35,976 nt of DNA from Patescibacteria group bacterium (lineage in GTDB: Bacteria; Patescibacteriota; Patescibacteriia; Magasanikbacterales; GWA2-37-8), in contig JAQTYG010000009.1 of assembly GCA_028688375.1 (NCBI GenBank), positions 1 through 35,976 on the forward strand. Direction: 5' to 3'. A model generated the notes under the pieces. It was not told where the DNA came from. It worked only from the letters and a program-made list of their open reading frames with translations, and made no database searches. Positions 1 to 35,976 of the stretch are shown here, piece by piece. Positions within the stretch are counted from its first letter, which is position 1. Each line of letters starts with the position of its first letter. The position numbers were made by a program, and so were the translations under genes.

Positions 1-203
1 CGCTGTTGATGATACGGCCCATCCCCGGGCAGGAAGAAGCCAACGCGCGTTTTGTGGAAAAAAATAATTACGGCCGTTTGATCGTCGATGAAAACAAAAT
101 AGCCGACGCAGTGAACGAAGTTCTGCGTCGGCCGGATATTTTTACTTCCGCCGAACTGCCGGCCAATCCCAATGAAAAAATTCTCGCGATTGTCTTATCC
201 TGA
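1..203 (+). CDS. C-terminal fragment of a MurG/MGDG-synthase-like glycosyltransferase (5' truncated)
   Basis: Open at left edge; PIPGQEEANARFVEKNNYG resembles the C-terminal donor-site region of MurG/MGD1-like glycosyltransferases. Confidence 0.6.
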   Translation, partial: LLMIRPIPGQEEANARFVEKNNYGRLIVDENKIADAVNEVLRRPDIFTSAELPANPNEKILAIVLS

Positions 204-633: not shown

Positions 634-637
634 ATTT

Positions 638-1240: not shown

Positions 1241-1242
1241 AA

Positions 1243-1602: not shown

Positions 1603-1609
1603 AAAAAAA

Positions 1610-2110
1610 TTATTTTGAATCTGTTGTACAACAATATGTACCTTCAGCGCAACTCTCCCCAGCTCTTGCCGAGTGTCCAGCGCCACCGCAACCTATCATA
1701 CTATCAGCGCACTTCCAACACGAATTCTGCGTGCTGTTCGGCGAACCTTGGCCTCCAGCTGCCCCGCTCAACCGACTACCGACAAAATAAGTGATGGTAT
1801 AAGCGGAAAGCACGATTATCAAACCGATTACCGCGGCCACGATAATATTTCGGGCTTTGGTAATTTTTTCCTCATTCCCGCCGGCCGTCATCCACATCAC
1901 CCCGGCGGCAATGGTTAAAACTAAAAAGATCGTGCCGATTACGGCCAGCACCGAACTGATAATATTAGCGGCGGTGCCCTGCAAATCATTGGACAAACCG
2001 GACTTCCCGACTGATTCGTTCAATAAACCAGCGCCCAAAGCATCGGCTGAAACCGCTACCGGCGCGACCAGCAGAAGAGAAAACGTTAAAAAAACGATAA
2101 TTTTTTTCAT
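1610..2110 (-). CDS. T4SS pilin-like protein with Cys-rich tail
   Basis: AVIGTIFLVLTIAAGVMWMTAGGNEEKITKARNIIVAAVIGLIIVLSAYTITYFV; tail CWKCADSMIGCGG...CAEGTYCC. Confidence 0.75.
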   Translation of the reverse strand: MKKIIVFLTFSLLLVAPVAVSADALGAGLLNESVGKSGLSNDLQGTAANIISSVLAVIGTIFLVLTIAAGVMWMTAGGNEEKITKARNIIVAAVIGLIIVLSAYTITYFVGSRLSGAAGGQGSPNSTQNSCWKCADSMIGCGGAGHSARAGESCAEGTYCCTTDSK

Positions 2111-2128
2111 AAGATAAAAAATAAAAAA

Positions 2129-3079: not shown

Positions 3080-3086
3080 ATTTTAA

Positions 3087-3641
3087 TTACGGTGTTTCTT
3101 CGCACGTCCCATAGACAACGGAGCCCTTAAAATCATTTTGACACATAGTCCATTGTTCTTCCGTGTCGGAAATCGGCGAACAAGTGACTGACCCGTCGGT
3201 CTCGTCAGTGACTTGGCACCAGGTTTCTTGCCCGCTATTGCCACCGGCGCCGGCATTGGGGTCTTCTCCGGTTTGCAGACGAGTAAAAATAAAACTGGAA
3301 ATAGCGAAAGAAGCGGCGGTAATAAGCAAGCCAATTAAAGCGGTTTCCAAAATAGTTTTGGCTTCATTTATTTTATCGGTCGCGCCCATGGCCGTCATCC
3401 ATTTTAAACCGGCATACAAAATCAGCAGAAAAAAAATCGTACCGACAAAAAATAAAACCGTCCTGACGATGGTGGCGGCCAAACTCTCCGGCGTCTCGTT
3501 GCTAAGGGACATGGAAGCGAGCGGAGTGTTTCTGGCCGTATTTTGCAAACCATATTTATCCGCCGCGGAAAAAACAAAAATCGGCGCGAACAACATCGCC
3601 CCAAAAATCACTCCCACTATCATCCGGCGCGCTTTATTCAT
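3087..3641 (-). CDS. T4SS pilin-like two-TM protein
   Basis: FFVGTIFFLLILYAGLKWMTAMGATDKINEAKTILETALIGLLITAASFAISSFIF. Confidence 0.75.
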   Translation of the reverse strand: MNKARRMIVGVIFGAMLFAPIFVFSAADKYGLQNTARNTPLASMSLSNETPESLAATIVRTVLFFVGTIFFLLILYAGLKWMTAMGATDKINEAKTILETALIGLLITAASFAISSFIFTRLQTGEDPNAGAGGNSGQETWCQVTDETDGSVTCSPISDTEEQWTMCQNDFKGSVVYGTCEETP

Positions 3642-3721
3642 AACTTGCTAAACTTATCGGCTTACCGGCTTATTATTTAACTTCGGTCTTGTTTCTTTTT
3701 TGTAAACAAACGAGGCCAAAA

Positions 3722-3762
3722 TTGCTGTCAGGGGGTTGCGCGCGCGAACCCCCTGACAGCAA
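3722..3762 (-). terminator. Strong hairpin (perfect 16-bp stem, 9-nt loop) between pilin paralogs; terminator/attenuator candidate
   Basis: ttgctgtcagggggtt / gcgcgcgcg / aaccccctgacagcaa. Confidence 0.55.
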
Positions 3763-3765
3763 ATT

Positions 3766-4182
3766 TTACGGCGTTCCTGTCGCCAATGTCAATTGTGTGA
3801 TAATGAAACTGGCCAAAGCATAGGCCGACAAAATAATGACCAAACCGATAACACCGGAGAAGATCCATTTTTTTGCCTCGCCCACTTGCTCTTCGTTTCC
3901 GCCGGCAGTCATCCATTTGAAACCGCCGATCAAGATTATAACCACGGCCACGATACCCAACAGACCCATGGCTACTCTAATAATTCTGGCTACGGTGGTG
4001 CGCACGTCGGTACTGCTTAAACCGGTTGCCGCGCCATAACTCAGGCCCAAATCCTCGGTCCCAAGCGGGGTAACATCAGTAGTGACCTCTTCATCTACCG
4101 CGTAAGCCGGAACCGCCAAGAGGCAGAAAAAACCGCCGGCCACCATCGCGAATGTCGCCACAAATAGTGAAATTTTACTCAT
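3766..4182 (-). CDS. T4SS pilin-like two-TM protein (start refined to MSKISLF)
   Basis: GLLGIVAVVIILIGGFKWMTAGGNEEQVGEAKKWIFSGVIGLVIILSAYALASFII; SD-like GGAAAGGGGG upstream. Confidence 0.75.
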   Translation of the reverse strand: MSKISLFVATFAMVAGGFFCLLAVPAYAVDEEVTTDVTPLGTEDLGLSYGAATGLSSTDVRTTVARIIRVAMGLLGIVAVVIILIGGFKWMTAGGNEEQVGEAKKWIFSGVIGLVIILSAYALASFIITQLTLATGTP

Positions 4183-4291
4183 ATTTTCACCCCCTTTCCA
4201 TGAAATATAATACATTTTTTCATAAAAAATAGTTGCGCCTCGCACTTTGTTCCTGTGGGTTTATTTTATCAAAATACCACCGAGAAAGCAA

Positions 4292-4804
4292 TTACTGCGA
4301 CGCGCCGGACAAGAATTTCAGGAAGGTGTCAACCAGCAAAAAGCTGGCTAAAACCAAAACTAAACCAATTATCGCCCACAACATGGTCTGACTGCCCTTT
4401 TTCACTTTTTCCTGATTACCGGCTGAGACCAACCATTGGAAACCGCCCCAAACCGTCATCGCCAAAGCCAAACCGCCAATCAAACCAAGGGCAGATTTTA
4501 TTATCAAGCCGATGATGGTGGACGGGCTAGCCCCGACATTAAGCGGATTTTCTAAACTAACGGTGCTGGCGCCGGAATTTCCGCCGCCGTTATTGGTTTC
4601 ACCACCTGTTTCTGCCGTACAATCCTCGGTCACTACGGTGCCGTTGCTCACGTCTTTGCACATATTGCGGTCAACTTCCGTATCGTTAATGACCGCGCAA
4701 AATTTCTCACCATCTTGAACAAAAGAACACCAAACCGCGGCGCCGGCTATTCGTGGTATCACCAGGGCTGTTAAAATAATAATTGTCACCAGAATTTTTT
4801 TCAT
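4292..4804 (-). CDS. T4SS pilin-like two-TM protein (start refined to MKKILVT)
   Basis: GLIGGLALAMTVWGGFQWLVSAGNQEKVKKGSQTMLWAIIGLVLVLASFLLVDTFL. Confidence 0.72.
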   Translation of the reverse strand: MKKILVTIIILTALVIPRIAGAAVWCSFVQDGEKFCAVINDTEVDRNMCKDVSNGTVVTEDCTAETGGETNNGGGNSGASTVSLENPLNVGASPSTIIGLIIKSALGLIGGLALAMTVWGGFQWLVSAGNQEKVKKGSQTMLWAIIGLVLVLASFLLVDTFLKFLSGASQ

Positions 4805-4806
4805 AT

Positions 4807-5715
4807 TTACCCTATTTTTTCCAATACAGTTTTTATTATCATATAGCTCGCGCCCATGGCCAAAGCGCCCAAAGTGGTCCAAACCAAAATTCTTTTGGCT
4901 TTGTCAACTCTTTCCGCATTACCCGAAGCCGACATCCAGATAAAACCGGCAAAAATATATAGAACCAAAGCAATGGAGCCCATGAAAGCCATCATTAAAT
5001 TAATCCCGCGGGTAAAAAGAACGGACGGCGAACCGATATCCATGGGATTTAAATTGGTAGCGCCTTTTTTCAATTCACTTATCCCGCCCTTGGGCTGTTC
5101 CGCCGGCTTGGTGCCGACGGTTTCATTATTTAGGGTTGGATCAATGGTTTGTTGTTGATCACAAGGATCTTCAGATAAAATTCCTAAACAAGAATCGCCA
5201 TTTAATATAGCCCGACAATCGCCGGCAATCGTTGAAGCGCACCAGCACCCTTCTGTGTTTGTACAAGTAAGGACATCGTCACCCTCTGTTTGAGCATACG
5301 CCGTTTCCACCCAACTAATTCTTTTTTCCGCTTTAACGCCGATGGTGTTGCTCAAAAACGTAATCAGAGCATAAGCGCTAAAGGAGATAACCAAGCCAAT
5401 AATCGCCGCCGTCATCGCCCCGGTCCCCTGTTTTATTTTTTCTTGATTACCTTGCGACATGATTAAAATAAAACCGCCGTAAACAAAAAACAACAGCGCT
5501 AAAGCGCCGATAAAACCGAATAAATAGGTGCCGACATTGATTGCCAACCAAATAAAGACGTTAACATTGTCGCAATTCGCGTCGATCTGCGCGCCGAGCA
5601 AACACTGCGGAATAAAAGCGCTCTCTTTGGCTTCACCTTGAGCGTACGCCGGCCCAGCCGATACCAAACCGCCGAGCAAAGCGACGAAGACGACCATGGC
5701 GTAAAAAAAACGCAT
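4807..5715 (-). CDS. Double-module T4SS pilin-like protein
   Basis: Two separate two-TM modules: FIGALALLFFVYGGFILIMSQGNQEKIKQG... and FMGSIALVLYIFAGFIWMSASGNAERVDKAKRIL... Confidence 0.75.
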   Translation of the reverse strand: MRFFYAMVVFVALLGGLVSAGPAYAQGEAKESAFIPQCLLGAQIDANCDNVNVFIWLAINVGTYLFGFIGALALLFFVYGGFILIMSQGNQEKIKQGTGAMTAAIIGLVISFSAYALITFLSNTIGVKAEKRISWVETAYAQTEGDDVLTCTNTEGCWCASTIAGDCRAILNGDSCLGILSEDPCDQQQTIDPTLNNETVGTKPAEQPKGGISELKKGATNLNPMDIGSPSVLFTRGINLMMAFMGSIALVLYIFAGFIWMSASGNAERVDKAKRILVWTTLGALAMGASYMIIKTVLEKIG

Positions 5716-13094: not shown

Positions 13095-13787
13095 TCACCG
13101 CCACGAACATTCCGCCACCAGCGGACGAATCTGTTCGCAAATTTTTTCAAACTCCTCGTCGCTATAAGTAGTCATCTCCATAAAAGCCGGGTCCAGCGTT
13201 TTGGTCGGCAAAAATCTTTGCAAAATATATTTCTTCGCGCCGGCGATATGCCTGACGATTTCCATGATATCTTCCGGCGTCAGTTGTTCCTTCACCACCG
13301 TGGTGCGAAATTCATAATCCAGCCCGGAATTCATCGCCAAAGCCGCGCTCAAACGCACATCGGCCGCGTCCACCGTGGAATTAATATGCGTCTGGTACTT
13401 CCGCCACGGCGCTTTAATATCCATGGCTAAATAATCAACCAGGTTTTGTCTCAGGGCCTCGGCCAGCACTCCCGGCCGACTGCCGTTGGTGTCCAATTTT
13501 ATCGCGAAACCCATGGTTTTCAACCGCGCCATAAAATCTAACAAGTCCGGTTGCAAAGTTGGCTCACCGCCGGTAATCACCACCCCGTCCAATTTCCCCC
13601 GGCGCGTTTCCAAAAACTCAATCACCTCGTGTTCGGTGACTGGCGCGAACATGCCCTGCGACAAGTTAATCAATTCCGGATTGTGACAAAAAGGGCAACG
13701 AAAAGGACAGCCCTGCGTGAACAAAATCGCGCTGGTCCGTCCGGGAAAATCTATGAGAGAAAATTTTTGCCAACCGCCGAAAATCAT
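13095..13787 (-). CDS. nrdG: Anaerobic ribonucleoside-triphosphate reductase activating protein (radical SAM)
   Basis: CPFRCPFCHNPEL (CxxxCxxC); VVITGGEPTLQPDL; adjacent to nrdD. Confidence 0.9.
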   Translation of the reverse strand: MIFGGWQKFSLIDFPGRTSAILFTQGCPFRCPFCHNPELINLSQGMFAPVTEHEVIEFLETRRGKLDGVVITGGEPTLQPDLLDFMARLKTMGFAIKLDTNGSRPGVLAEALRQNLVDYLAMDIKAPWRKYQTHINSTVDAADVRLSAALAMNSGLDYEFRTTVVKEQLTPEDIMEIVRHIAGAKKYILQRFLPTKTLDPAFMEMTTYSDEEFEKICEQIRPLVAECSWR

Positions 13788-16700
13788 ACATCAAGAGGTA
13801 GGATCGTTTTAAACGTCCTCCTCATGGTAAACTCGGCGCGCTTGCCTTTATTCCATTGGTCCACCGGGCGCAAATAGCCGACGACGCGAGAATACACCTC
13901 GCACTTGGCTTGGCACTCCGGACATTTGAAATGTTCGCCGGCGATATAACCGTGGGTCGGACAGACGCTGAAAGTCGGCGAGAAAGTGAAGTAGGGCAAT
14001 TTGTAATTGGTACAGATTTTCTTAACCATGTTCTTGACCGCGTTCGGATCGGAAATTTTTTCACCGACAAACAAGTGTAACACCGTGCCCCCGGTATATT
14101 TGGTTTGCAAATTATCCTGCAAATCAAGCGCTTCAAAAATATCATCCGTGTAATTGACCGGCAATTGCGTGGAATTGGTATAGAACGGATCCACGTGAGT
14201 TTTTTTGTAAATTTCTTCATTGGCCACGATAATATCCGGATATTTTTCTTTATCTTTTTGCGCCAGACGGAAAGAGGTGCCTTCGGCCGGAGTCGCTTCC
14301 AAATTGTAATTGTTGCCGGTCTCCTTTTGGAAATCAATCATTTTATCACGCATGAAATCCATCACTTTTTCGGCAAAAGCGCGCCCCTTGGTCGTGGTGA
14401 TAGTCTCCCCCGGCATCAAATTAACAATCGCCTCGTTCATGCCGAGAATGCCGATGGTATTAAAATGATTCTTCCAATAACAGCCGTGGCGCTCTTTCAT
14501 GTTGCGCAAATAATATTTGGAATAGGGATAAAGATTTTTGTCGGTAAAATTTTCCAGCACCTTGCGTTTTAACTCCAAACTTTCCTTGGCCAGTGTCATT
14601 AAATCACCCAGCTTCTTCAAAAAGGTCTTTTCGTTTTTAGCCGTATAGCCCAAGCGCGGCAAATTCAGGGTCACCACGCCGATGGAGCCGGTCAACGGAT
14701 TGGCGCCAAACAAACCGCCCCCGCGCCGTTCCAACTGGCGATTATCAATGCGCAGACGACAGCACATGGAGCGGGCGTCTTCCGGACTCATATCCGAATT
14801 GATAAAATTGGAAAAATAGGGCACGCCGTATTTGCCCGTGATTTCCCAAAGCGCTTTCAGTTTCGGGTTATCCCAATCAAAATCTTTGGTAATGTTGTAG
14901 GTCGGAATGGGAAAAGTAAAAACCCGCCCTTTGGCATCGCCGGCCATCATCACTTCGAAAAATGCCTTGTTCAATAAATCCATTTCTTTTTGGAAATCGC
15001 CGTAACATTCTTTCTGCGGTTTGCCCCCAATCAGCACCGGCTGGTCTTTGTAATAGCTCGGCACGTTCAAGTCCATGGTGATGTTGGTGAACGGAGTATT
15101 GCCGGTAATAAAAATTTTGCCATTGCGCCGGGCGATTACGGTTTCATTGTCAGTATTGGGACACCAAATCACGCCCTGATAATCAATTTGCTTAACCTCA
15201 TTGATGTAGGTATCTGTGTGTTTGATCAAGCGAATGATATAACGATCTTTTTTTGACAATTCATTATCCGGCTTTCTGACCAAAACTGTCGCGCCATAAC
15301 CGGCATTAGCCGCCGTCATCATCAAACCGTCTTTGATGGCCGCCGAAGCGGTGGTTATTTTGCATTCGTCGTGGCCGTCGCCCCTAATATATGTTTCCAA
15401 AAATAATCTGGCGGTCTCAGTGTCGGCCGATAAAATTTCCCGCGGCACAAACTTGATACCGGCCGATTTATCGCCGCCGAAAAATGCCAAAATCTTTTTG
15501 GTAGAAGTGGCATCAAAACGCAAAACTTGACAATCAGCGCCCAAACCGGACTGCGTTCTTTCGGTATAAGACAAGCTCAACTCTTCGCTTAAGGCCTTAA
15601 TTTCTTCATATTCGCTCGGTTTAATTTCGCGAGATTGATAAATACTGACGCGGCCGGCGCCCTTCTCGCCTTTATCCAATGTGCCCTCGGCTATCACCCA
15701 AGCTAAAAATTTAACCCAAGCGTCGCTTAGGGCGCTTTGCCCTTTAACATTGCCGAGCGAACCGACCGGTACGATAAACGGGGATTTTAATTTCAAAACT
15801 TTTTCAATCGGCTCCAAAACATAACTACCGCCGTTAAATTGTTTTCTGACGACTCTGTGTTCCGGAGAGATCAACTGGTCGGTGATGCGGTTTTTTAAAT
15901 TATACATTTTGCCTTTATACTCGCGGGCAAAAATCCGCTTGACCGGCAGATATTCGATAACGCCGGACTCAACGTTAAAAGTGGCGATAACATCTTTTTC
16001 CTTAACACCTTTATAACCTTTCCAACCTTCGGCCGTTAAAATTTCCGTGTCTTCCGACATACATTGAAAGCCCACCCGGGTCGGTACATTCATGTTAAAC
16101 AAAAATTCCTGCAGGGCCTGTTTGGTTTCTTCGTAAGTTAGATTGTCGTAACGAATAAACGGCGCGAGCAAAGTATCGAAATTGGAGAAGGCTTGCGCGC
16201 CGGCCGCTTCGCCCTGCAAAGTATAGAAAAAATTCACCACCTGGCCGAGAGCGCTGCGCAAATGTTTCGGCGGTTTTGATTCGATTTTCCCGGGCACGCC
16301 TTTGAAACCTTCCAACAACAAATCGTGCAAGTCCCAACCAACGCAATAAACCGACAAAATATTCAAATCATGAATATGCATGTCACCGGTCAGGTAAGCT
16401 TCTTTAATTTCTTTGGGATAAATTTTATTCAGCCAGTAGGCCTTGCTGATTTCGGATGAAATATAGTTGTTCAAGCCCTGCAGAGAAAAAGTCATGTTGC
16501 TATTTTCGTTCACCTGCCAGTCCAGCTGGTCCAAATACTGATCCACCAGATTAACATTCGCCCGATTATTCAGCTCGCGCAGTTGAGCGTGCTGGTCGCG
16601 GTAAATAATAAAGGCCTTGGCGGTTTTTTTGTACGGCGAGCTAAGCAAAACCTCTTCCACCAAGTCCTGAATGTCTTCCACGTTGGGAATTTTGGCCTTA

Positions 16701-16861
16701 ATCAAATCGCCGGCCATGGCCAACGCTTTGGCGGTAAGTTTTTGGGCGATTTTTTCGTCAAATTCACCGGTGGCCACGCCGGCTTTGGCGATCACCCGGG
16801 TAATTTTGGCAGCGTCAAACTTTACCACCCGGCCGTCTCTCTTTTTTATTTGCTTGAACAT
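13784..16861 (-). CDS. nrdD: Anaerobic ribonucleoside-triphosphate reductase, interrupted by an intein
   Basis: ATP-cone N-terminus; GDMHIHDLNILSVYCVGWDL; CPTHGYIAGEHFKCPECQAKCEVYSRVVGYLRPVDQWNKGK (Zn site and Gly-radical loop). Confidence 0.95.
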   Translation of the reverse strand: MFKQIKKRDGRVVKFDAAKITRVIAKAGVATGEFDEKIAQKLTAKALAMAGDLIKAKIPNVEDIQDLVEEVLLSSPYKKTAKAFIIYRDQHAQLRELNNRANVNLVDQYLDQLDWQVNENSNMTFSLQGLNNYISSEISKAYWLNKIYPKEIKEAYLTGDMHIHDLNILSVYCVGWDLHDLLLEGFKGVPGKIESKPPKHLRSALGQVVNFFYTLQGEAAGAQAFSNFDTLLAPFIRYDNLTYEETKQALQEFLFNMNVPTRVGFQCMSEDTEILTAEGWKGYKGVKEKDVIATFNVESGVIEYLPVKRIFAREYKGKMYNLKNRITDQLISPEHRVVRKQFNGGSYVLEPIEKVLKLKSPFIVPVGSLGNVKGQSALSDAWVKFLAWVIAEGTLDKGEKGAGRVSIYQSREIKPSEYEEIKALSEELSLSYTERTQSGLGADCQVLRFDATSTKKILAFFGGDKSAGIKFVPREILSADTETARLFLETYIRGDGHDECKITTASAAIKDGLMMTAANAGYGATVLVRKPDNELSKKDRYIIRLIKHTDTYINEVKQIDYQGVIWCPNTDNETVIARRNGKIFITGNTPFTNITMDLNVPSYYKDQPVLIGGKPQKECYGDFQKEMDLLNKAFFEVMMAGDAKGRVFTFPIPTYNITKDFDWDNPKLKALWEITGKYGVPYFSNFINSDMSPEDARSMCCRLRIDNRQLERRGGGLFGANPLTGSIGVVTLNLPRLGYTAKNEKTFLKKLGDLMTLAKESLELKRKVLENFTDKNLYPYSKYYLRNMKERHGCYWKNHFNTIGILGMNEAIVNLMPGETITTTKGRAFAEKVMDFMRDKMIDFQKETGNNYNLEATPAEGTSFRLAQKDKEKYPDIIVANEEIYKKTHVDPFYTNSTQLPVNYTDDIFEALDLQDNLQTKYTGGTVLHLFVGEKISDPNAVKNMVKKICTNYKLPYFTFSPTFSVCPTHGYIAGEHFKCPECQAKCEVYSRVVGYLRPVDQWNKGKRAEFTMRRTFKTILPLDV
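15098..16063 (-). mobile_element. Intein (322 aa) with LAGLIDADG-type endonuclease motifs inside NrdD
   Basis: Junctions GFQ|CMSEDTEILTAEGW ... NGKIFITGN|TPFTN; motifs FLAWVIAEGTL and FLETYIRGDGH; 966 nt in frame. Confidence 0.92.
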
Positions 16862-19246: not shown

Positions 19247-20320
19247 TTATTTTTTGGTAATCCAATAATCCATCAATAATTTCTGCCGCAACTTAAAAGC
19301 GTTCCCGTGCTTCAACATGCCCAAGTAAGACTGCACTGCTTCCTCTTTTGAGTTTTCATCTATCCGCGCAAACATCCTTTGCTTTGTCGCCCGCCGCAAA
19401 ACACGATGGCCGGGGAAGTTAACCCAGCCGAGAAAATCCACGCCGGATGAATATGTTTGGATAAAAACTTTTTTGTCGTGCAAACGCAATTTCAGCCGCA
19501 ACTCTAAAAATTCAGCAATTCGCGGAATAATATTTTCCAGCCAATCCCTGTCCGCCGACAAAATAGCAAAATCATCGGCATAACGGATATATTTTTTCGC
19601 GCGCAAATTATGTTTCACCCATTGGTCTAATTCATTCAAATATACATTGGCGAATAATTGCGAAGTCAAATTGCCGAGTGGCAGGCCGACTTTGTCATCC
19701 CCGTGAAAACGGGGATCCAACGGCGACTGGATTCCCGCCTGCGCGGGAATGACAAACGAGTGTGGACAACGCGCGGTTTCAAAACTCCCCACCACCTCCC
19801 CCAGCAACCACAAAACATTCACATCCGCAACATGCTCGCCCAAAATCCCCAGCAAAACATCATGGTCAATACTGGCGAAAAACTTACGAATATCGCCTTT
19901 CAATACCCAGCAGGTCCGATGATCATTTCGGCTTTCGCTCCGCGCCATCTGATTGAATCGCTTCACCGCCTTGTGTGTGCCTTTGTCCAGTCGGCACGAA
20001 TACGAATCGGCAATAAATATCCGGTCAAAAAACGGATATAACACGCGGTAAATGGCGTGATGTAGAAGACGGTCGCGCACGCTGGCTTTGTGAATCTGGC
20101 GCGGTTTTGGGTCGCTGATATTAAACGCTTCGTATGGTCCGTGCCGATAAGTCCGATTGGCCAAATCCTCGTGAAGAGATTTAATATTGTCGGCCAGAGT
20201 ATATTCAAACGCCAAAACATCCAGTTTCCTTTTTTTACCGACAACAAACTCGCCCCAGGCGAGAAATAAATTTTTCATTGAAATTATATCTTCAAAACTA
20301 TGGACCAATCTACTCTTCAT
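19247..20320 (-). CDS. DGR-type reverse transcriptase
   Basis: KGDIRKFFASIDH, GLPLGNLTSQLFANVYLNELDQW, KYIRYADDFAIL; linked to TR/VR pairs and avd. Confidence 0.93.
   Translation of the reverse strand: MKSRLVHSFEDIISMKNLFLAWGEFVVGKKRKLDVLAFEYTLADNIKSLHEDLANRTYRHGPYEAFNISDPKPRQIHKASVRDRLLHHAIYRVLYPFFDRIFIADSYSCRLDKGTHKAVKRFNQMARSESRNDHRTCWVLKGDIRKFFASIDHDVLLGILGEHVADVNVLWLLGEVVGSFETARCPHSFVIPAQAGIQSPLDPRFHGDDKVGLPLGNLTSQLFANVYLNELDQWVKHNLRAKKYIRYADDFAILSADRDWLENIIPRIAEFLELRLKLRLHDKKVFIQTYSSGVDFLGWVNFPGHRVLRRATKQRMFARIDENSKEEAVQSYLGMLKHGNAFKLRQKLLMDYWITKK
19691..19756. repeat. 66-bp palindromic repeat inserted in frame in the RT ORF
   Basis: tttgtcatccccgtgaaaacgggg...cccgcctgcgcgggaatgacaaa; minus strand translates as FVIPAQAGIQSPLDPRFHGDDK, a translation typical of dispersed palindromic repeats. 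Confidence 0.85.
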
Positions 20321-21242: not shown

Positions 21243-21956
21243 CTAGGAACCAAGCTCCACCCCCAGCGGGAAGACGCCCAAGGAGCCGTAGCGGTGGTCG
21301 TCCCAGGTGACGTAGCAGTGGAGCCCGGCCTCATCGAAGCCACCGAGGTGGAGCCGGGAGCCGACCGAGTAGCGGGTATCCGTCCGCACCCAGTCGGTGT
21401 TGAGCGGGGCGCGCTCACCCGTGCGCTTGAAGTGCGCCATGATGAGACCGGCGACGAGAGCCGCCGAGCCGAACGAGGCGCAGTGGCTCGCGGGCAAACC
21501 GTACTTCTCGCGAAGCTCGACGAGCGCCTGCATCTGCTCCTCGGCGTTCTTCTTCGTCGCGACCATGCGCGGGATGAAGAACACCAAGCAGTCGACCGTG
21601 GGCTCGTCGTTCTTGAGCTCCCAGTCCTGTAGGTAGCTGAACTTCTCGTAGCAGGGGCCGGCGAGGGGGGCGTGCAACTTCAGGGTGAAGCCGGCCTTCA
21701 CTGCCCAGAGGACCGGGCCGGTGTAGCCCAGGTCGCTCGCGAGCTTGCGCCACTTCGCGACCGCGCCCACGAGGTGGGCCGGAGCGTCCTTGTCGTCGAC
21801 GTGCGTGAAGAAGGTGTTCTCCACGGCCGCGCGGACCAGACCAGCGACGAACTCCTTGAACTCCTTGCCCTTCTCCACCAACACGGATTGCTCCTCATCA
21901 GAGAGACCGGTGATGATGGCGGCGATGGCGTTGAACGAAGCCTTGCGGTTTGCCAT
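21243..21956 (-). CDS. DGR target (variable) protein 1
   Basis: Start refined to MANRKAS after AAGGAG SD; VR at the 3' end of the gene; paralogous to target 2. Confidence 0.93.
   Translation of the reverse strand: MANRKASFNAIAAIITGLSDEEQSVLVEKGKEFKEFVAGLVRAAVENTFFTHVDDKDAPAHLVGAVAKWRKLASDLGYTGPVLWAVKAGFTLKLHAPLAGPCYEKFSYLQDWELKNDEPTVDCLVFFIPRMVATKKNAEEQMQALVELREKYGLPASHCASFGSAALVAGLIMAHFKRTGERAPLNTDWVRTDTRYSVGSRLHLGGFDEAGLHCYVTWDDHRYGSLGVFPLGVELGS
21264..21377 (-). repeat. DGR variable repeat VR1 (114 bp)
   Basis: Same length as TR; 16 substitutions, all at TR adenines (7 to T, 6 to C, 3 to G). Confidence 0.97.
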
Positions 21957-22107
21957 GACAGACTCCTTTCCCAAAGTGGGATTTTCTCTCAACCGAAGTG
22001 GCCGAGAGGATTGCTAGGATTGTTTATTCCCAGCCTTCTTTTGGTCAATTTGGCTAAGTTGACCCAAAGAAAGCCAGGATATTGAAAAGAACGGTATTTA
22101 ACAAAGT

Positions 22108-25110: not shown

Positions 25111-25860
25111 CTAGGAACCAAGCTCCACCCCCAGCGGGAAGACGCCCAAGTTGTCGTCGCGGCTGCCGTCCCAGTCGCCGTCGCAGCCGAGCCCGGTCTC
25201 ACCGAAGTCACCGAGGCCGAGCCGGTCGCCGCCCGAGTGGCGGGTATCCGTCCGCACCCAGTCGGTGTTGAGCGGAGCGCGCTCGCCCGTGCGCTTGAAA
25301 TGCGCCAGGATGAGGCCGGACACGAGAGCCGCCGAGCCGAACGAGGCGCAGTGGCTCACGGGCAGACCGTACTTCTCGCGGAGCTCGGCCAGTGCCAGCA
25401 TCTGCTCCTCGGCGTTCTTCTTCGTCGCGACCATGCGCGGGATGAAGAACACCAAGCAGTCGACCGTGGGCTCGTCGTTCTTGAGCTCCCGGTCCTGCAG
25501 GTAGCTGAACTTCTCGTAACAGGGGCCGGCGAGGGGGGCGTGCGATTTCAGGGTGAAGCCGGCCTTCACTGCCCAGAGGACCGGGCCGGTGTAGCCCAGG
25601 TCGCAGGCGAGCTTGCGCCACTTACTTCTTGCTTCAATGAACGCGATTGGGACTTCCTCATCAGCAAGAGAGATGACGAACTCTTTCTTCTCTCTTCCCT
25701 TTCTTCTTTTTTCTGGCGACTTCTTCGGCCAGACAACGCCCGCCGGCATCGGCCCGCCTTTGAGAAACAGGCCGAGGTCGTGCGCGAACTCATCGCCGTT
25801 TTTCCCGGCCAAGCGTTCTCTCACCTCACCTACCAGATTCCACGCTGTTTTGTAGTCCAT
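25111..25860 (-). CDS. DGR target (variable) protein 2
   Basis: Shares its C-terminal part with target 1 (KWRKLA.DLGYTGPVLWAVKAGFTLK...); VR at the 3' end; different N-terminal domain. Confidence 0.93.
   Translation of the reverse strand: MDYKTAWNLVGEVRERLAGKNGDEFAHDLGLFLKGGPMPAGVVWPKKSPEKRRKGREKKEFVISLADEEVPIAFIEARSKWRKLACDLGYTGPVLWAVKAGFTLKSHAPLAGPCYEKFSYLQDRELKNDEPTVDCLVFFIPRMVATKKNAEEQMLALAELREKYGLPVSHCASFGSAALVSGLILAHFKRTGERAPLNTDWVRTDTRHSGGDRLGLGDFGETGLGCDGDWDGSRDDNLGVFPLGVELGS
25132..25245 (-). repeat. DGR variable repeat VR2 (114 bp)
   Basis: 14 substitutions versus TR, all at TR adenines (13 to G, 1 to C). Confidence 0.97.
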
Positions 25861-28737: not shown

Positions 28738-28768
28738 AATCCGTCCGCCTTAGGCGGACGGATTTTTA
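28738..28768 (+). terminator. Rho-independent terminator of the AI-2E transporter gene
   Basis: aaatccgtccgccttaggcggacggattttta. Confidence 0.75.
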
Positions 28769-28824
28769 ATTCTGGCCGAACGGCCGACGAGTCCTAATGT
28801 GTTGCGGGGCCCGGACTTGAACCG
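28768..28824 (+). repeat. 57-bp direct repeat (copy 1) containing a 3' tRNA-fMet fragment
   Basis: aattctggccgaacgg..cgagtcctaatgtgttgcggggcccggacttgaaccg; 2 mismatches to 35868-35924. Confidence 0.85.
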
Positions 28825-28899
28825 ATTCACGAAAAATTGGATTAGCCGCCTGTGCGGCGCAAATACAAAAGGACAGTGTTAACTGCCCCTTCGCACTTC

Positions 28900-29144
28900 G
28901 TTGAATATATTGGACGAAGTGCGAAAATTTTACGAAACTGGGGGAGCTAATGTGTCCGCCTCCGGCGGACAAGATTAATCTTATATGGGCGGGCAAAAAG
29001 GAAGGGGTTGGGGGAGGGAATTTTTGCCCGCCCTTCTTCGCCCGCCCGTTTACCCGCCACAGCCCCGCCTCTGCGGGGCGACGGCTGGGCCTCTTTTCCG
29101 CCCTGGGGTGGTTTTTCGTATTCGCTATCGCGAATGCGCCGCCG
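28900..29144. repeat. Left arm of imperfect inverted repeat (B segment)
   Basis: gttgaatatattggacgaagtgcg...attcgctatcgcgaatgcgccgccg; reverse complement at 33980-34244. Confidence 0.85.
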
Positions 29145-29157
29145 GAAATTTTTTTAA

Positions 29158-30021
29158 TTAACTGCCTGTTTTAAACTCCATCCGCCGTTGTTCAATTAGT
29201 TTCAACGATTGGATGAAAACATGATCTCGCAGACCACCTCTATAAGTTGTCGTCACATTTATCTCAACCCAATGCCCCAATAGGCCGTGCATATCAATAG
29301 ACGTTCTAAGATGTTCATCTAGGGTGGCTGGTATCGAATTGCCTTCTCCATCGACTTTGAAACCGAGATGCCTTTTTGTCGCGTCAAGATCAACACGATT
29401 GATCCACCCTTGCAAAATCTCAAAATGGTCGCCATCTATTTCCTGAGTCGTCTCTGCATCATCGGCTAGGGCAGTAAATTGTTTTTTATCTTCAAATTTT
29501 ATCGTTGTGGTAGTGTTGCCTGGTACGCCACAGGTAAATTCATCCCCCGTTTGCTCAAGCGGATTTATAACATTTGTAACTGATTTAATGAACTCTGAAT
29601 TTTGTAAAAGCTCGATTTTTACCTGATCACCAATTTCTGTCATAAGCTGGGGTGATAAAGTTTTTAATTCGGTAGCACCTTTTTGCTGAACCAAAGTAAA
29701 CACCATCACAATCAAAACTCCCAAATTAATAATACCTTGATAGTCATTTAATGATTTAACGGATTTAAAGACAATCTTAACTCTTTTTTTGAATGAACCT
29801 TTTTGAAACGCTTCAATCAATATCTGAACGTCCTTTGGACTAAAATTGATTTTTTTATGTTTTGATAATATTCGCGTCGCAATCAAAATAGCATCTTCGA
29901 GCCCAATAATTTCATTTTTCAAAGCGCTTATTTCCATCGTGCCATTAAAAGATGGACCCTTATAAGCAAGGTCGAATAAATAATCGGGAAATTGTCTTGC
30001 CGGAAAAAGCGTATCGTTCAT
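29158..30021 (-). CDS. Hypothetical protein with one predicted TM segment
   Basis: 287-aa ORF; YQGIINLGVLIVMVFTLVQQ. Confidence 0.7.
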   Translation of the reverse strand: MNDTLFPARQFPDYLFDLAYKGPSFNGTMEISALKNEIIGLEDAILIATRILSKHKKINFSPKDVQILIEAFQKGSFKKRVKIVFKSVKSLNDYQGIINLGVLIVMVFTLVQQKGATELKTLSPQLMTEIGDQVKIELLQNSEFIKSVTNVINPLEQTGDEFTCGVPGNTTTTIKFEDKKQFTALADDAETTQEIDGDHFEILQGWINRVDLDATKRHLGFKVDGEGNSIPATLDEHLRTSIDMHGLLGHWVEINVTTTYRGGLRDHVFIQSLKLIEQRRMEFKTGS

Positions 30022-30071
30022 AAAATTCCTATAAATTTGGGCGGCGGATGATCAGGCCGCCGCCGCCGTGA

Positions 30072-30272
30072 TTAACTCCTATTGTAGGGCGACTGGTTCG
30101 TGGGTTGTAAACTAATCCCCAACTCATATGCTTTTGCCCTTATCGCTTCTTCGGTCCTACCCAACTTAAGTCCAATTACTCTGGTTGGGGTGTTCTTCTT
30201 AGCCAGTATCCTCAACTGCACTACTTCTTGGGCAGTCCATTGTTTACCAGTATTCCTTGTGTAGAATACCAT
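30072..30272 (-). CDS. Small SANT/Myb-like helix-turn-helix protein
   Basis: KQWTAQEVVQLRILAKKNTPTRVIGLKLGRTEEAIRAKAYELGISL. Confidence 0.7.
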   Translation of the reverse strand: MVFYTRNTGKQWTAQEVVQLRILAKKNTPTRVIGLKLGRTEEAIRAKAYELGISLQPTNQSPYNRS

Positions 30273-30289
30273 ATATTTAGTTGTTTTTT

Positions 30290-30440
30290 TAACGCATCTA
30301 TGATATATTTAAAATACCTCAGATGGTTCTGCAGACACAAAGCTGTCCCGACTATAGGCTATACCATGGTTTTTAGCGAACAGCGTCCGCAGATATATTA
30401 TGCCTTAACCTCCGCTCGAACGGAGGTTTTGGTTTTTTGT
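30290..30440 (+). ncRNA. Candidate structured ncRNA ending in a Rho-independent terminator
   Basis: Long stem TCTGC-A-GAC-ACAAA-GCTGT ... ACAGC-GTC-C-GCAGA plus aacctccg/cggaggtt hairpin and T-run. Confidence 0.45.
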
Positions 30441-30442
30441 TT

Positions 30443-30826
30443 TTATTTTATTTTTTTATCTAACTGGATTACAAATATTTTGCCAAAGTTTGGGTGACTA
30501 ATTTCTTGCGGCAAATATTGCCCAGACAATTCATTGCATTTTAAATCATAATTTGAAAAAAACGATCTGCAGGTTACTCCTCCCGATGTTTTATTTTCAG
30601 AATGCGTAATGGTAAACCGGCCGTTTACTTCATTGTTAGAAAATAAAAATCCTATTGAATTTTCTTGTTTATTATAAAAAAGGACTACAAATTTAAAACC
30701 TTCGATATTGTTGCGGTGGTAAAAGCCGGAATTAAAACCAAAACTGTGTGCCTTATTTATACTGATATTATTATTACTCAACTTAGTGCCTGTTTTTGTG
30801 AATTGTTCAAATTGAGATATATCCAT
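30443..30826 (-). CDS. Hypothetical protein
   Basis: 127-aa ORF with normal composition. Confidence 0.55.
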   Translation of the reverse strand: MDISQFEQFTKTGTKLSNNNISINKAHSFGFNSGFYHRNNIEGFKFVVLFYNKQENSIGFLFSNNEVNGRFTITHSENKTSGGVTCRSFFSNYDLKCNELSGQYLPQEISHPNFGKIFVIQLDKKIK

Positions 30827-31030
30827 ATAGATTTTTTAAATTTAAAATTTAACCTTATTATTATAGCACAAGTAAAGAAAAATTGTCAAGCAATTAATCG
30901 GGCGAATATTTTACAACTTGCCCAGATTTAGATATTCCAACAATTTATTTGCCCCAATACTATAACATAAAGAAGTAAATTTGTCAATAGGAGATTATTA
31001 AAATATGACTATTTAGCTTAAAATAAACAA

Positions 31031-31055
31031 AAAACCGCAACATCGAGCGGTTTAT
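31031..31055 (-). terminator. Terminator downstream of the R-M operon
   Basis: Minus strand aaccgctcgatgttgcggttttttg. Confidence 0.65.
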
Positions 31056-31078
31056 TTTGCTACTCTGTGGATAACTTT

Positions 31079-32149
31079 TCATTTGGCGTCTCTACAAACT
31101 ACGTAGTGCAAAAACTCTAAAGTGTTTTCCGCTTTATAATCACGGCCGCTGTCCGCTTTAAATCTATTGTATTTTTTGGTAAAAAAACCATATTTTCCGC
31201 GTACGCCCATAATTTCCTTAATATCGCCTGGCGTCATTAAACCCTCATTATTGTAACTCAAAAATATGTATTTTACATTTGCGTTATCAATCAAATCTTT
31301 AAACGCCTTTTTCACCTGCGGCCGAGAACAATAGGCGGATTTTTGATCTGCATAATCGCGTAGCCCTGTTTTTCCATGAATATTGGGACTATCATATTTT
31401 GCGATTGTTTCCAAAATGTGATAATTCGTCGCATACTGTCTTTGGTTATATGGCGGATCCAAATACAAGACGTCTCCTTTAACTGTCTTGATCAGCTTGT
31501 TTATATCTTCATTGTAAACTTTATGGTCCTGATCGTTGACGATTAACTCTGCTGGTTTCAATAAAAACAATTTTTGTGCTGACTTTTTTATTTGTTTTAA
31601 AAAAGCGCCATAAACAGAAGCGGTATTCGCGCATTTATCAACCGACTCAACCAGGCTTGTCAATAAAAAATAATATTCTCCATCCGTTATTATTTTCTTT
31701 TCTTTCCACCTCTCAATTCTCTGTCTTATGGCATCGCACTTTTTGCCATTTTCGTCGGAAAAATATTGCCGCTGCTCTTTTTTATTTTTGGTACCGCCGG
31801 GGCAATAATTTTTATATATAAATCCTTCTACTCCAACCATTTTGGACAAATAATCACATACTACATCTTTTCGCTCTGATAATTTTATATTTTTTAGTTC
31901 CGGCACGGTATCGACTAATCCTTCAAATTTTAGTACACGATGATTTTCTATATAATGTTTGTTTAAAACGTAGCTATAATATTGTAAGTCGTTAGAAATT
32001 ATACTATACCCTTTCTTTTTAAAATACGCGCCCACCGCACCAGTACCAGCGAATAGGTCACAAAAAACATGGCTGTTCTTATCTACGACTTTGTTAATTG
32101 ATTCTTCCAAAAATTTGAGCAGGGATAATTTTGAACCAATATAATTCAT
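31079..32149 (-). CDS. D12-class DNA adenine-N6 methyltransferase
   Basis: NYIGSKLSLLKFL; FCDLFAGTGAVGAYF; VLYLDPPYNQRQYATNYH. Confidence 0.9.
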   Translation of the reverse strand: MNYIGSKLSLLKFLEESINKVVDKNSHVFCDLFAGTGAVGAYFKKKGYSIISNDLQYYSYVLNKHYIENHRVLKFEGLVDTVPELKNIKLSERKDVVCDYLSKMVGVEGFIYKNYCPGGTKNKKEQRQYFSDENGKKCDAIRQRIERWKEKKIITDGEYYFLLTSLVESVDKCANTASVYGAFLKQIKKSAQKLFLLKPAELIVNDQDHKVYNEDINKLIKTVKGDVLYLDPPYNQRQYATNYHILETIAKYDSPNIHGKTGLRDYADQKSAYCSRPQVKKAFKDLIDNANVKYIFLSYNNEGLMTPGDIKEIMGVRGKYGFFTKKYNRFKADSGRDYKAENTLEFLHYVVCRDAK

Positions 32150-32151
32150 AT

Positions 32152-32838
32152 TTATTCTGTTTCTTCTGGATATAATTTTTTAAATACTTGTTCTACAGCC
32201 TCATTTGCTGACAGCTCGCTTATCTTCCTTACAATAACCTTTCTATATTCAACCGGATCATACTGGTAACACCCTTTGCACCCCAATTCCTCAGAATAAT
32301 TTTCATCCCCTACATAAAAATCATACGGGTTGCCTTTAATATTTTTTGCGCTCCAGCGTCTGTTAGTTTCCTTACATTTTTTACAAATTTGTCTTTTAAT
32401 ATCATTAGCCGCTTTTGAAAGTGGTTGAAAATCAGCTATTTTTTGCGCTGCTAAATTTGAAAGTCTATGGTCATCTTTTCTGCCAGCCTTATGGTCAATT
32501 TCAATCTTTGTGTTTTCAGAATTACCATTAACTCCCAACATTACACAATTTTGCGTTTTATAAAAATCTTTTATATCTTTTCTAATGTTTTGATTTAAAA
32601 TTTTTTTATTGTTGAACCCAGATAAACGAATTCTGTCGATAGAATTTCCATTTGTTTTACTTTTATCAAATTCAACAATATATTGCTTTGCCAAACTAGA
32701 ATTAGCCCGACACCAACTTCCACCATTTCCAAGTTGAAGTTGTTTGTATTTACCAACGAATTCTAATACCGAAACCCAACGACTTATACCTTTTTGGCTG
32801 GGCATTCCAAGTTCTAAAAATAATTCCTTTTTTGTCAT
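32152..32838 (-). CDS. Putative HNH-type restriction endonuclease
   Basis: KIEIDHKAGRKDDHRLSNLAAQKIADFQPLSKAANDIKRQICKKC; lies between two methyltransferases. Confidence 0.72.
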   Translation of the reverse strand: MTKKELFLELGMPSQKGISRWVSVLEFVGKYKQLQLGNGGSWCRANSSLAKQYIVEFDKSKTNGNSIDRIRLSGFNNKKILNQNIRKDIKDFYKTQNCVMLGVNGNSENTKIEIDHKAGRKDDHRLSNLAAQKIADFQPLSKAANDIKRQICKKCKETNRRWSAKNIKGNPYDFYVGDENYSEELGCKGCYQYDPVEYRKVIVRKISELSANEAVEQVFKKLYPEETE

Positions 32839-32839
32839 A

Positions 32840-33622
32840 TTAATATTTGAAAATTAGAATGTATTCGTGTTTAAAAATATAATAATCACTGGAAAGAGCC
32901 CGGTAGCGCCAAATAGCTTCTTTGTTTAACTTAGCGCGGTTACCTTCCATATTCTTTATAACAATACTTTTAAGAACTAGGCCCAACTTCATCATCTCAT
33001 TTATACAGTAAAAATTCAAAGGAATCCACCGACCTTGAGAATATTTATCACCGATAACTACCACAACATACCGTCCATGTTCCAAAATCGATAAAGTGTT
33101 TTTAACAACTTTTGCGAATTTATCCAAAAAATCTTTTAAAGAAACGGCATTTGAGAGATCCTCTTTTTTATCACTAAACTTGACAATATCAGCATACGGC
33201 GGGTGCAGTATCGCCAGTTGCACGAATTGTCTACGGTGCTTCTTCAAGGCTTCCTTAACACTATCAAAAGTCTTTTCCTTAATGCTATCACCTGATATAA
33301 ATTCAAAAAAATTCTTTTTTGAGTCAATTTTCCCTCTGACAAATTCAACCATCTTGGACTGGATATCCACGCCCACACAATTACGGCCCAGTGTTTCGGC
33401 TTCAAAAGCGGTAGTACCACTGCCAACGAAAGGATCAAAAATAACATCATTTTTCTTAGTGTACCTTAAAATTAATTGGCGAGGAATTTGCGGAACAAAA
33501 TTTCCGTGATAAAAATTACTATGTTTACCTGTTTTGTCCCTCTCACTAATTAACCACAAACTATCTGTCCAAATTTCCGAACTTTTCCAATTGTCCAAAT
33601 CGACGTCATTAAATTTGGGCAT
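32840..33622 (-). CDS. DNA methyltransferase (N4/N6 amino-MTase, HPPY motif)
   Basis: LAILHPPYADIVKFSD; FDPFVGSGTTAFEAETLGRNCVGVDI. Confidence 0.88.
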   Translation of the reverse strand: MPKFNDVDLDNWKSSEIWTDSLWLISERDKTGKHSNFYHGNFVPQIPRQLILRYTKKNDVIFDPFVGSGTTAFEAETLGRNCVGVDIQSKMVEFVRGKIDSKKNFFEFISGDSIKEKTFDSVKEALKKHRRQFVQLAILHPPYADIVKFSDKKEDLSNAVSLKDFLDKFAKVVKNTLSILEHGRYVVVVIGDKYSQGRWIPLNFYCINEMMKLGLVLKSIVIKNMEGNRAKLNKEAIWRYRALSSDYYIFKHEYILIFKY

Positions 33623-33623
33623 A

Positions 33624-33836
33624 TCAATTTAATAAATCATCCACCTTAACATCTAGCGCCTTGGCAATCTTTGAAATTGTATCAACCGTCGGATTGGTAT
33701 TGGCCCCTGATTCAATTTTAATAATCGTGTTATAGGTAACATCGGCCAATTTGGATAAACGATCCTGCGAAACGCCAATTTTATTACGGTACTTTTTTAT
33801 ATTTTCAGCGATAACAGATTTGCCACTTGACGACAT
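33624..33836 (-). CDS. XRE-family HTH regulator (R-M controller-like)
   Basis: IGVSQDRLSKLADVTYNTIIKIESGANTNPTVDTISKIAKALDVKVDDLL; first gene of the R-M operon. Confidence 0.85.
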   Translation of the reverse strand: MSSSGKSVIAENIKKYRNKIGVSQDRLSKLADVTYNTIIKIESGANTNPTVDTISKIAKALDVKVDDLLN

Positions 33837-33979
33837 AGTAATAGATTACTATAATTATATTATTAGTATCCGACCACCCATAATCTGTTGTGATTATATC
33901 AAAAAATCAACCATCCGTAAAATCTCAAGGGAGCTACAATTGCGCGCGCACGGGAGGGTGGGGCAAGCGCAAAACGGTT

Positions 33980-34244
33980 CGGCGGCGCATTCGCGATAGC
34001 GAATACGAAAAACCACCCCAGGGCGGGAAAGTGGCCCAGCCGTCGCCCCGCAGTGGCGGGGCTGTGACGGGTAAACGGTCGGGCGCGTGAGGGCGGGCCA
34101 CGCCAAAGGCGGACGGGCAAAAATTCCCTCCCCCAACCCCTTCCTTTTTGCCCGCCCATATAAGATTAATCCTGTCCGCCGGAGGCGGACACATTAGCTC
34201 CCCCAGTTTCGTAAAATTTTCGCACTTCGTCCAATATATTCAAC
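33980..34244. repeat. Right arm of inverted repeat (B segment, inverted)
   Basis: Reverse complement resembles 28900-29144. Confidence 0.85.
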
Positions 34245-34333
34245 ACATTAGGACTCGCCGACCGTTCGGCCAGAATTTGGTAAGGTTTTTTCCACAACCA
34301 CGCCACTTTTTGGCCAGCGAGGCGGCGGTTCGT
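34241..34333. repeat. 93-bp perfect inverted repeat, left arm (Y segment)
   Basis: Exact reverse complement of 35812-35904 by hand check. Confidence 0.95.
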
Positions 34334-34443
34334 GGTCGCCACGGGCGACCCGGGCGTAAATACGCCCGCTAATTTTTTCCACATTTCGCGACAGCGAAAA
34401 ACAAAGCCAATTTTCACCACGCTTTACATTTAACCCAAGGAGT

Positions 34444-35976
34444 ATGAAAATCAAATATTTTCTCTATGCCCGAAAGTCCACCGAGGACGAGGAACGCCAA
34501 GTAATGAGCATAGAGGCGCAATTGTCGGAGTTGGCTGATTATGCCAAACGCGAAAATATTGTTATCGCCGAGAAATTTATAGAAAGCAAAAGCGCAAAGA
34601 AACCCGGGCGAGAAATTTTTAATGAAATGATAGAAAAAATCCACAACAGCAAAGAGCCAATAGGAATTATGGCTTGGCATCCTGATCGTCTCGCCCGAAA
34701 CAGCATGGACGGCGGGCAGATAATCTACCTCGTGGACACGGACAAGATAGTTTCTTTGCGCTTTCCCACTTTTTGGTGCGAGCCAACTCCGCAAGGTATG
34801 TTTATGCTTCAAGTGGCTTTCGGGCAGAGTAAATATTATTCCGATAATTTATCGGAAAATGTAAAGCGTGGTTTTCGCCAAAAACTCAAGCGTGGCGAGT
34901 GGCTAAACATGGCTCCGTTTGGCTATATCAACAATCCCAAAACCCGGAATATTGAGCCCGACCCGACAAAAAGCAGAATCGTATTAAAAGCGTTTGAGGA
35001 ATTTGCCACCGGACAGCATACATTGGAGAGTTTGGCGCACCGCTTGAGTTTTTGGGGCGTGGTGGGCAAGTACGGAAAAAACTTTGTAAAATCGCAAGTC
35101 CAAGCAATGCTTACGAACCATGCCTATCTGGGGCTTATTAAATTCAACGGAGAGCTGTTTGAAGGCAAATTTCAACCAATTGTTCCCATGGCGACTTTTG
35201 AAGCCGTGCAAGCGATATTAAAGAACAGGGCCAAGCCGAGAAAAAGCAAAAAACTACATAATTTCCCTTTCCGTGGGCTTATGACTTGCGGTGAGTGCGG
35301 AGCCGCCATAACCGCGCAATATGCCCACGGAAACGGAGGCACATATATTTATTATCGCTGTACTAAACGGCTTGGCCCCTGTTCGCAAAAATATTTGCGT
35401 CAGGATCAAGTGACCGAGCAGATTAAAGAACGGCTTCAACAAGTCGCCATCGCTGATGAAACAAAAGAGTCAATGCTGGCCCGAGTGGCGCAATGGGAAA
35501 AAGAGAACAATTCGTCGCAAGAAACCTACGCCCAAAATCTACAAGGCCAAACAAAAGACACGGAGCAAAAATTGGACAGACTAGTCAACGCTTTTTTAGA
35601 TGGCAGTATTGAAAAAGAAACATATCTGCTAAAAAAGGAGGAATTGATAAAAACAAAAACAGACCTTGCGGAACGAAAGTCTGATTTTGGGCGTAGGGGG
35701 AACAATTGGTTTGAACCAATCCGCGATTTTATTTTCACGGCCCACCACGCGGAAAAATTGGCTTTGTCCAACGATTTGACCGAGATCAAATCGTTGGTGG
35801 AAAAAATTGGAACGAACCGCCGCCTCGCTGGCCAAAAAGTGGCGTGGTTGTGGAAAAAACCTTACCAAATTCTGGCCGAACGGTCGGCGAGTCCTAATGT
35901 GTTGCGGGGCCCGGACTTGAACCGGGAACCTTCGGGTTATGGGCCCGACGAGCTGCCAATTGCTCTACCCCGCTAT
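34444..35976 (+). CDS. Large serine recombinase (open at window end; not in supplied ORF track)
   Basis: AAGGAG SD then MKIKYFLYARKSTEDEERQVMSIEAQLSEL; WHPDRLARN; MAPFGYINNPKT; zinc ribbon CGECGAAI...YYRCTKRLGPC; 511 codons without a stop. Confidence 0.93.
   Translation, partial: MKIKYFLYARKSTEDEERQVMSIEAQLSELADYAKRENIVIAEKFIESKSAKKPGREIFNEMIEKIHNSKEPIGIMAWHPDRLARNSMDGGQIIYLVDTDKIVSLRFPTFWCEPTPQGMFMLQVAFGQSKYYSDNLSENVKRGFRQKLKRGEWLNMAPFGYINNPKTRNIEPDPTKSRIVLKAFEEFATGQHTLESLAHRLSFWGVVGKYGKNFVKSQVQAMLTNHAYLGLIKFNGELFEGKFQPIVPMATFEAVQAILKNRAKPRKSKKLHNFPFRGLMTCGECGAAITAQYAHGNGGTYIYYRCTKRLGPCSQKYLRQDQVTEQIKERLQQVAIADETKESMLARVAQWEKENNSSQETYAQNLQGQTKDTEQKLDRLVNAFLDGSIEKETYLLKKEELIKTKTDLAERKSDFGRRGNNWFEPIRDFIFTAHHAEKLALSNDLTEIKSLVEKIGTNRRLAGQKVAWLWKKPYQILAERSASPNVLRGPDLNREPSGYGPDELPIALPRY
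35812..35904. repeat. 93-bp perfect inverted repeat, right arm; encodes the recombinase C-terminus
   Basis: Exact reverse complement of 34241-34333. Confidence 0.95.
35868..35924 (+). repeat. 57-bp direct repeat (copy 2) overlapping tRNA-fMet
   Basis: 55/57 identical to 28768-28824. Confidence 0.85.
35902..35974 (-). tRNA. tRNA-Met, probably initiator fMet (anticodon CAT)
   Basis: agcggggtagagcaattggcagctcgtcgggcccataacccgaaggttcccggttcaagtccgggccccgcaa; unpaired 1:72 (A:A), GGG/CCC anticodon stem; CCA not encoded. Confidence 0.85.

Follow-up and report, generated by a model that had tools for sequence, protein, structure and literature searches.

Why should a serine recombinase gene that runs into a tRNA gene lie between two copies of a perfect inverted repeat, one of which forms its own 3' end? 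The question is raised by the window, a stretch of 35,976 nucleotides from a Patescibacteria group bacterium, which is the complete contig C11 of a genome of 969 kb in 33 contigs. In the initial annotation, perfect 93-bp inverted repeats were described around the recombinase, with two C-terminal readings from the two junctions, and a self-inverting integrase or the product of an intramolecular att reaction was put forward. Both descriptions were borne out: 34241-34333 and 35812-35904 are exact reverse complements over all 93 nt (93/93), and translation of both junctions gave the two readings. The match breaks off immediately at the outer ends (AATATATTGG vs CGGGGCCCGG) and just as sharply at the inner ends; a perfect match of 93 nt is far beyond chance expectation.

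Anatomy of the element

Two further repeat pairs, absent from the initial annotation, were found: an inverted pair, 28900-29144 and 33980-34244 (90% identical overall, 99% over the first 131 bp), and a direct repeat, 28768-28824 and 35868-35924 (55/57 identical). Taken together, they outline an integrative element of ~7.0 kb at tRNA-fMet (28904-35904), whose leftward reach to about 28904 had likewise not been recognized. The element carries two DNA methyltransferases, an ICEA-family protein, an XRE regulator, and the serine integrase. Features are listed from left to right; B and B' denote the halves of attB, P and P' the arms of attP.

28768..28824, plus strand: direct repeat of 35868-35924; last 37 bp of the P arm and 20 bp of the tRNA-fMet 3' end
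28880..28930, plus strand: attL (B.P'), left element end; core GTTG at 28900-28903, P' from 28904
28900..29144, plus strand: P' arm at the left cargo end; inverted repeat of 33980-34244
29158..30021, minus strand: cargo ORF of 287 aa; no Pfam match
31079..32149, minus strand: cargo D12-class adenine methyltransferase (Pfam PF02086, E=3e-47)
32152..32838, minus strand: cargo ICEA-family protein (Pfam PF05315, E=1.5e-116)
32840..33622, minus strand: cargo N6/N4 DNA methyltransferase (Pfam PF01555, E=2e-25)
33624..33836, minus strand: cargo XRE-type regulator (Pfam PF01381)
33980..34240, minus strand: inner P' arm; its minus strand codes the native integrase tail, NILDEVRKFYETGGANVSASGGQD and a stop
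34241..34333, minus strand: upstream copy of the P arm, 93 bp, core 34241-34244; with 33980-34240 it forms an intact inverted attP (P.P')
34444..35904, plus strand: large serine integrase gene; resolvase, recombinase, and zinc-ribbon domains
35812..35904, plus strand: P arm within the integrase 3' end, 93 bp, core GTTG at 35901-35904; joined to the tRNA it forms attR (P.B')
35901..35974, minus strand: tRNA-fMet, anticodon CAT (ARAGORN); its 3' end is the attB half B'

The position of attL is given by the junction it has in common with the other two att sites and by the agreement of its P' arm with the family consensus. The ICEA-family protein is presumably a restriction enzyme partner, judging from general knowledge of the family. 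Among relatives of the element, the cargo includes MamI-, ScaI-, and GmrSD-like endonucleases with methylases, as well as a NucS-like nuclease, a phosphotransferase, a radical-SAM protein, and a transporter.

To the left of the element, the fragment at 28768-28824 is probably what is left of an attR-like site from a previous insertion. Between it and attL lie ~75 bp of other DNA (28825-28899), and the whole arrangement (28768-28899) looks as though an earlier element had entered the same tRNA.

Elsewhere in the window, visual inspection of the ORF list picked out a reverse transcriptase (19247-20320, minus strand) and two similar proteins of ~249 aa with alike C-termini (21243-21992 and 25111-25860, both minus strand), which together resemble a diversity-generating retroelement and its two targets. 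Also by eye, about nine small paralogous membrane proteins in tandem show a pilin/VirB2-like pattern (208-5715, minus strand), and a protein of 1025 aa resembles an anaerobic ribonucleotide reductase with an apparent intein (13784-16861, minus strand).

Integrase and attachment sites

All tests made place the protein among the large serine integrases. Its Pfam domains are PF00239, PF07508, and PF13408 (resolvase, recombinase, and zinc ribbon, respectively); the catalytic serine motif YARKST is invariant across the family alignment; a PDB profile search matched the A118 integrase (4kis, E=3.5e-20).

The attL (28900), inverted attP (34241), and attR (35904) of the window have only GTTG in common. 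The three-site comparison covered about 15 elements whose left end is complete; in these, the left end (B.P'), the upstream inverted site (P.P'), and the right end (P.tRNA) likewise share only 3-10 bp. The P' arm is present twice, in inverted orientation, with one copy at each cargo end, in the window and in relatives. In a consensus of 58 elements, P' reads tgTnTtTTnAAcnAAgTnCGAACntATTTT and the tRNA arm cGGgggnnGGAtTCGAACCc; CGAAC occupies positions +19..23 relative to the core in P' and +14..18 in the tRNA arm. Measured from the core, the zinc-domain motif of attB is thus 5 bp nearer than that of attP; this is the shift established structurally for the att sites of serine integrases (PMC3783163), and it marks P.P' as attP and the tRNA end as attB. 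It also points to recognition of the tRNA T arm by the zinc domain; in tRNA-fMet, this arm bears the motif TTGAACC. We regard this att anatomy, as read from the aligned sequences, as close to certain.

A terminal-repeat transposon was considered for the integrase segment and rejected: its outer flanks are fixed, always a conserved P' arm and a tRNA 3' end, and the repeats do not end at variable target DNA with target duplications. In G021, a genome of the same genus as G017, the tRNA-Asn locus is free of the element that G017 carries (only the right flank was matched); this unoccupied locus is consistent with integration and excision activity.

C-terminal tails of the integrase

The attP site lies inside the 3' end of the integrase gene. 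As assembled, the integrase reads ERSASPNVL-RGPDLNREPSGYGPDELPIALPRY (followed by VG and a stop), and the open frame continues through tRNA-fMet; across the other junction it reads ERSASPNVL-NILDEVRKFYETGGANVSASGGQD and a stop. Contig C20 shares exactly 127 bp with the end of the window, and then runs through tRNA-fMet to tRNA-Gly; followed into C20, the integrase frame reaches a stop just beyond tRNA-fMet.

When the frame was read over P.P', the tail motif [IVA]RT[FYH]F was found in 59/79 elements, against 2 and 4 of 79 in the shifted frames and 0/79 in the integrated reading, where antisense tRNA stands instead. The second tail, ascribed initially to an inverted state, was therefore read correctly and its status misjudged: it is the native, conserved tail, and the assembled one is antisense tRNA gained at integration. 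Single-contig and near-complete genomes concur on the tail across attP, and we consider an exchange of tails upon integration highly probable.

Measured from the conserved IGSN codons, the tail lies at more than 20 different distances, and the reading frame is kept; in several tail codons (e.g., T, V/I/A) the third position is the most variable. The binding motif in P' overlaps the RT-F codons, so that constraint on DNA and constraint on protein are mixed here, and conservation of the tail motif may be partly due to DNA binding; a coding role of the tail is favored by the upkeep of the frame and by the L/Y positions that are closer to the core. The tail falls outside the stretch aligned to solved integrases.

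Conservation in Patescibacteria

Homologs of the integrase were drawn from samples of 192, 380, and 379 genomes and fetched with their flanks. Loci with at least 400 bp upstream and at least 300 bp downstream were taken as well-flanked (74 of 121 loci, the window included), and a repeat was counted when inverted, at least 35 bp long, and present with one copy upstream of the gene and the other over its end. The repeat was found in 61/74 loci of the first set and an antisense tRNA end in 64/74; with 21 more genes, mostly from near-complete genomes, these counts became 75/90 and 79/90, and among forty further genes each of the two features was counted in 25/29 well-flanked loci. In total, an inverted repeat (35 to ~160 bp) is present in 100/119 loci, and the gene ends at an antisense tRNA 3' end in 104/119. 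These frequencies hold for the family of the window integrase only, as homologs were picked by their likeness to it. The sequence of the repeat varies from element to element; its gene-side outer end lies a few bases within the tRNA 3' end in most. In the phylum-wide sample, the family is present in 101/379 genomes.

The proposal of an intramolecular att reaction was right as to the involvement of att sites; a local by-product of such a reaction does not fit, as an intact attP is kept family-wide. A local leftover of a second element as origin of the upstream copy is likewise ruled out by conservation across the phylum.

The two P copies of one element agree at 99.1% over 75 bp; when elements with 80-96% identical integrases are compared, P is mostly 71-87% identical (~78%), with two pairs higher. 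In the window and in G019 (integrases 80% identical in amino acids), the repeat has diverged in sequence, and its length of 93 bp and its spacing from the start codon are unchanged. It follows that the copies are ancient and have been homogenised; on sequence comparison, they evolve in concert. Two elements with 96% identical integrases, L056 (G125:C13) and L058 (G143:C4), lie at tRNA-Arg and tRNA-Leu, respectively, and their P arms are 78% identical, which hints at target switching with both P copies changing together.

A second related element in the genome of the window, L100 (G000:C21), has a disrupted integrase with nine in-frame stops in the aligned stretch; its repeats are perfect over 120 bp (P) and 204 bp (P').

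About 22 relatives (including L063, L064, L072, L073, L075, L086, L088, L092, and L132) carry, on the cargo-side flank of the inner P', a contiguous mosaic of ~70 bp made up of three pieces copied from the integrase gene of the same element: 20 bp from codons ~47-52, the 28 bp that directly precede the repeated P arm, and 17-29 bp of leader. The mosaic is antisense to the integrase gene on its coding strand, and the copies track each element's own gene.

Orientation and free forms

The segment is surrounded by inverted recombination sites, as an inversion switch would be. The integrase gene is directed at the tRNA in essentially all 119 well-flanked homologs. There are two exceptions. G401:C8 is rearranged, with tRNA-Ala at either outer end of the integrase segment. 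In G197:C40, the only locus with a reversed gene, the contig stops 2 bp beyond a repeat of 148 bp; this reversal may be the assembler's choice. In the genome assembly of the window, no alternative orientation was seen; the assembly crosses both 93-bp copies unbroken, which argues against an abundant inverted or circular form.

The break between C11 and C20 was examined by reasoning on shared 127-mers. An inversion within the population would branch at 35812-35938 and an empty site at 35901; the 127-mer actually shared is 35850-35976, by which inversion was rejected as the cause of the break, and strain variation is more likely.

In a search for free or circular forms, a first scan of viral contigs gave no relative; a profile search then turned up five distant relatives among these contigs, none with a tRNA or a native tail. 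The best plasmid matches were recombinases of <30% identity only.

A possible role for the inverted site

From the att anatomy we infer a circle, an activity for each tail, an inversion, and a switch function, as follows. In a free circular state, the gene would read over attP and end in the conserved native tail, and the integrase segment would lie between two inverted attPs. Insertion via the attP at the gene end would couple the gene to the tRNA, with residues from antisense tRNA replacing the tail, and would give the stable, tail-swapped form found in genomes. The upstream attP, upside down, comes through integration intact and stores the missing tail. Should the integrase segment then be inverted between these sites, by the integrase or by homologous recombination, the native tail would come back in frame, the gene would be co-directional with the tRNA, and the element would be reactivated; attP x attR and attP x attP are not normal reactions for serine integrases (PMC3783163). 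A gene pointing toward the tRNA would thus mark a locked state and a gene pointing toward the cargo an active, excision-competent one, and the inverted attP would be a built-in reset for a self-disrupting integrase.

Such a reset switch is plausible from the sequences; the reversed gene of G197:C40 and the rearranged G401:C8, where the inverted attP seems to have reacted, speak for it, and the near-uniform orientation of the gene speaks against it. The account as a whole, a tRNA-targeted element with attP inside its integrase gene and an inverted spare attP as reset, is the one toward which we lean, by a modest degree. Inversion as the function of the repeat is somewhat less likely than not, and more tentative still is the general form of the proposal, in which self-disrupting serine integrases with a heritable reset would be widespread in bacteria, a flip would toggle the elements between locked and mobile, and direction would depend on which form the integrase takes and not on a separate factor.

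The two attPs might instead be interchangeable, the opposite site giving a second chance to integrate, with no flip in the chromosome and with the other outcome unstable. The sites are identical over the whole attP, and one intact inverted attP is always kept in the integrated form. In G401:C8 (L151, 6799-8595), tRNA-Ala abuts both outer ends of the integrase segment and P' is replaced on one side, a sign that a tRNA can be a partner for the inverted attP as well. Equal sites predict both orientations, however, and essentially one is seen, so that added selection or dynamics would be needed; we consider this explanation unlikely.

A role at the level of RNA appears improbable: inward antisense copies would fold onto the gene ends and silence the integrase mRNA, or insulate it from read-through. 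A transcript coming from the cargo would indeed bear antisense of the gene end, and the mosaic of about 22 relatives adds antisense to three other parts of the gene; against this, the repeat ends coincide exactly with the att junctions, the P' side is duplicated too, and the mosaic is absent from the window element.

Slightly less probable again is an ancient passive duplication without function, held identical by gene conversion. It would account for the 120-bp perfect repeat that persists in L100 beside a broken integrase; it fits poorly with a repeat kept phylum-wide in small genomes, always as a complete attP and with the tail in frame.

An assembly artefact at the repeats, the error allowed for in the initial annotation, has a negligible chance of being the source and was discarded: repeats do trouble assemblers (45/142 contigs stop within 400 bp upstream of the gene, vs 9 downstream; these ends were not counted in favor of inversion, as the P and P' repeats account for them), but the 93-bp repeat here is shorter than the 127-bp contig overlap, and the same layout recurs at about 100 independent homologous loci in other genomes, single-contig ones included, with unrelated repeat sequences.

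Relation to known systems

With large serine integrases of phages and integrative elements (A118/LI, SPbeta, and phiC31 type), the present family has in common the domains, the catalytic motif, the short att core, and the 5-bp shift; it differs in the position of attP within the coding region of the integrase, in the retention of a second, inverted attP, in the use of the 3' ends of many different tRNAs as attB, and in the tiny size of the elements. In archaeal suicidal (SSV-type) integrases, attP also lies in the integrase gene and the product is changed by integration into a tRNA, as here (59/79); they belong to the tyrosine recombinases and their gene is split in two, whereas here a serine integrase loses only its tail, of which a spare copy is stored alongside. 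In Hin/Gin/Pin switches and self-inverting loci, as here, inverted sites bound a recombinase-bearing segment with two C-terminal readings; in contrast to these, there is no small invertase here, the sites are the attP and attR of an integrase, and the layout is known from essentially one orientation. No description of such an architecture was found in the mainly open-access literature covered by the search.

The family is a bacterial serine counterpart of the archaeal self-disrupting integrases, which have been called exclusive to archaea and whose survival has been called paradoxical (2021 review, PMC8371274). As the lost part has an evident storage place here, the paradox of survival becomes testable. 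The zinc domain appears to read the universal T-arm sequence TTCGAAC, a simple reason for the broad targeting of tRNAs, and the family is a rich source of integrases whose att sites at tRNAs are defined. Given its presence in 101/379 genomes, it is probably a main carrier of restriction-modification and other cargo in Patescibacteria.
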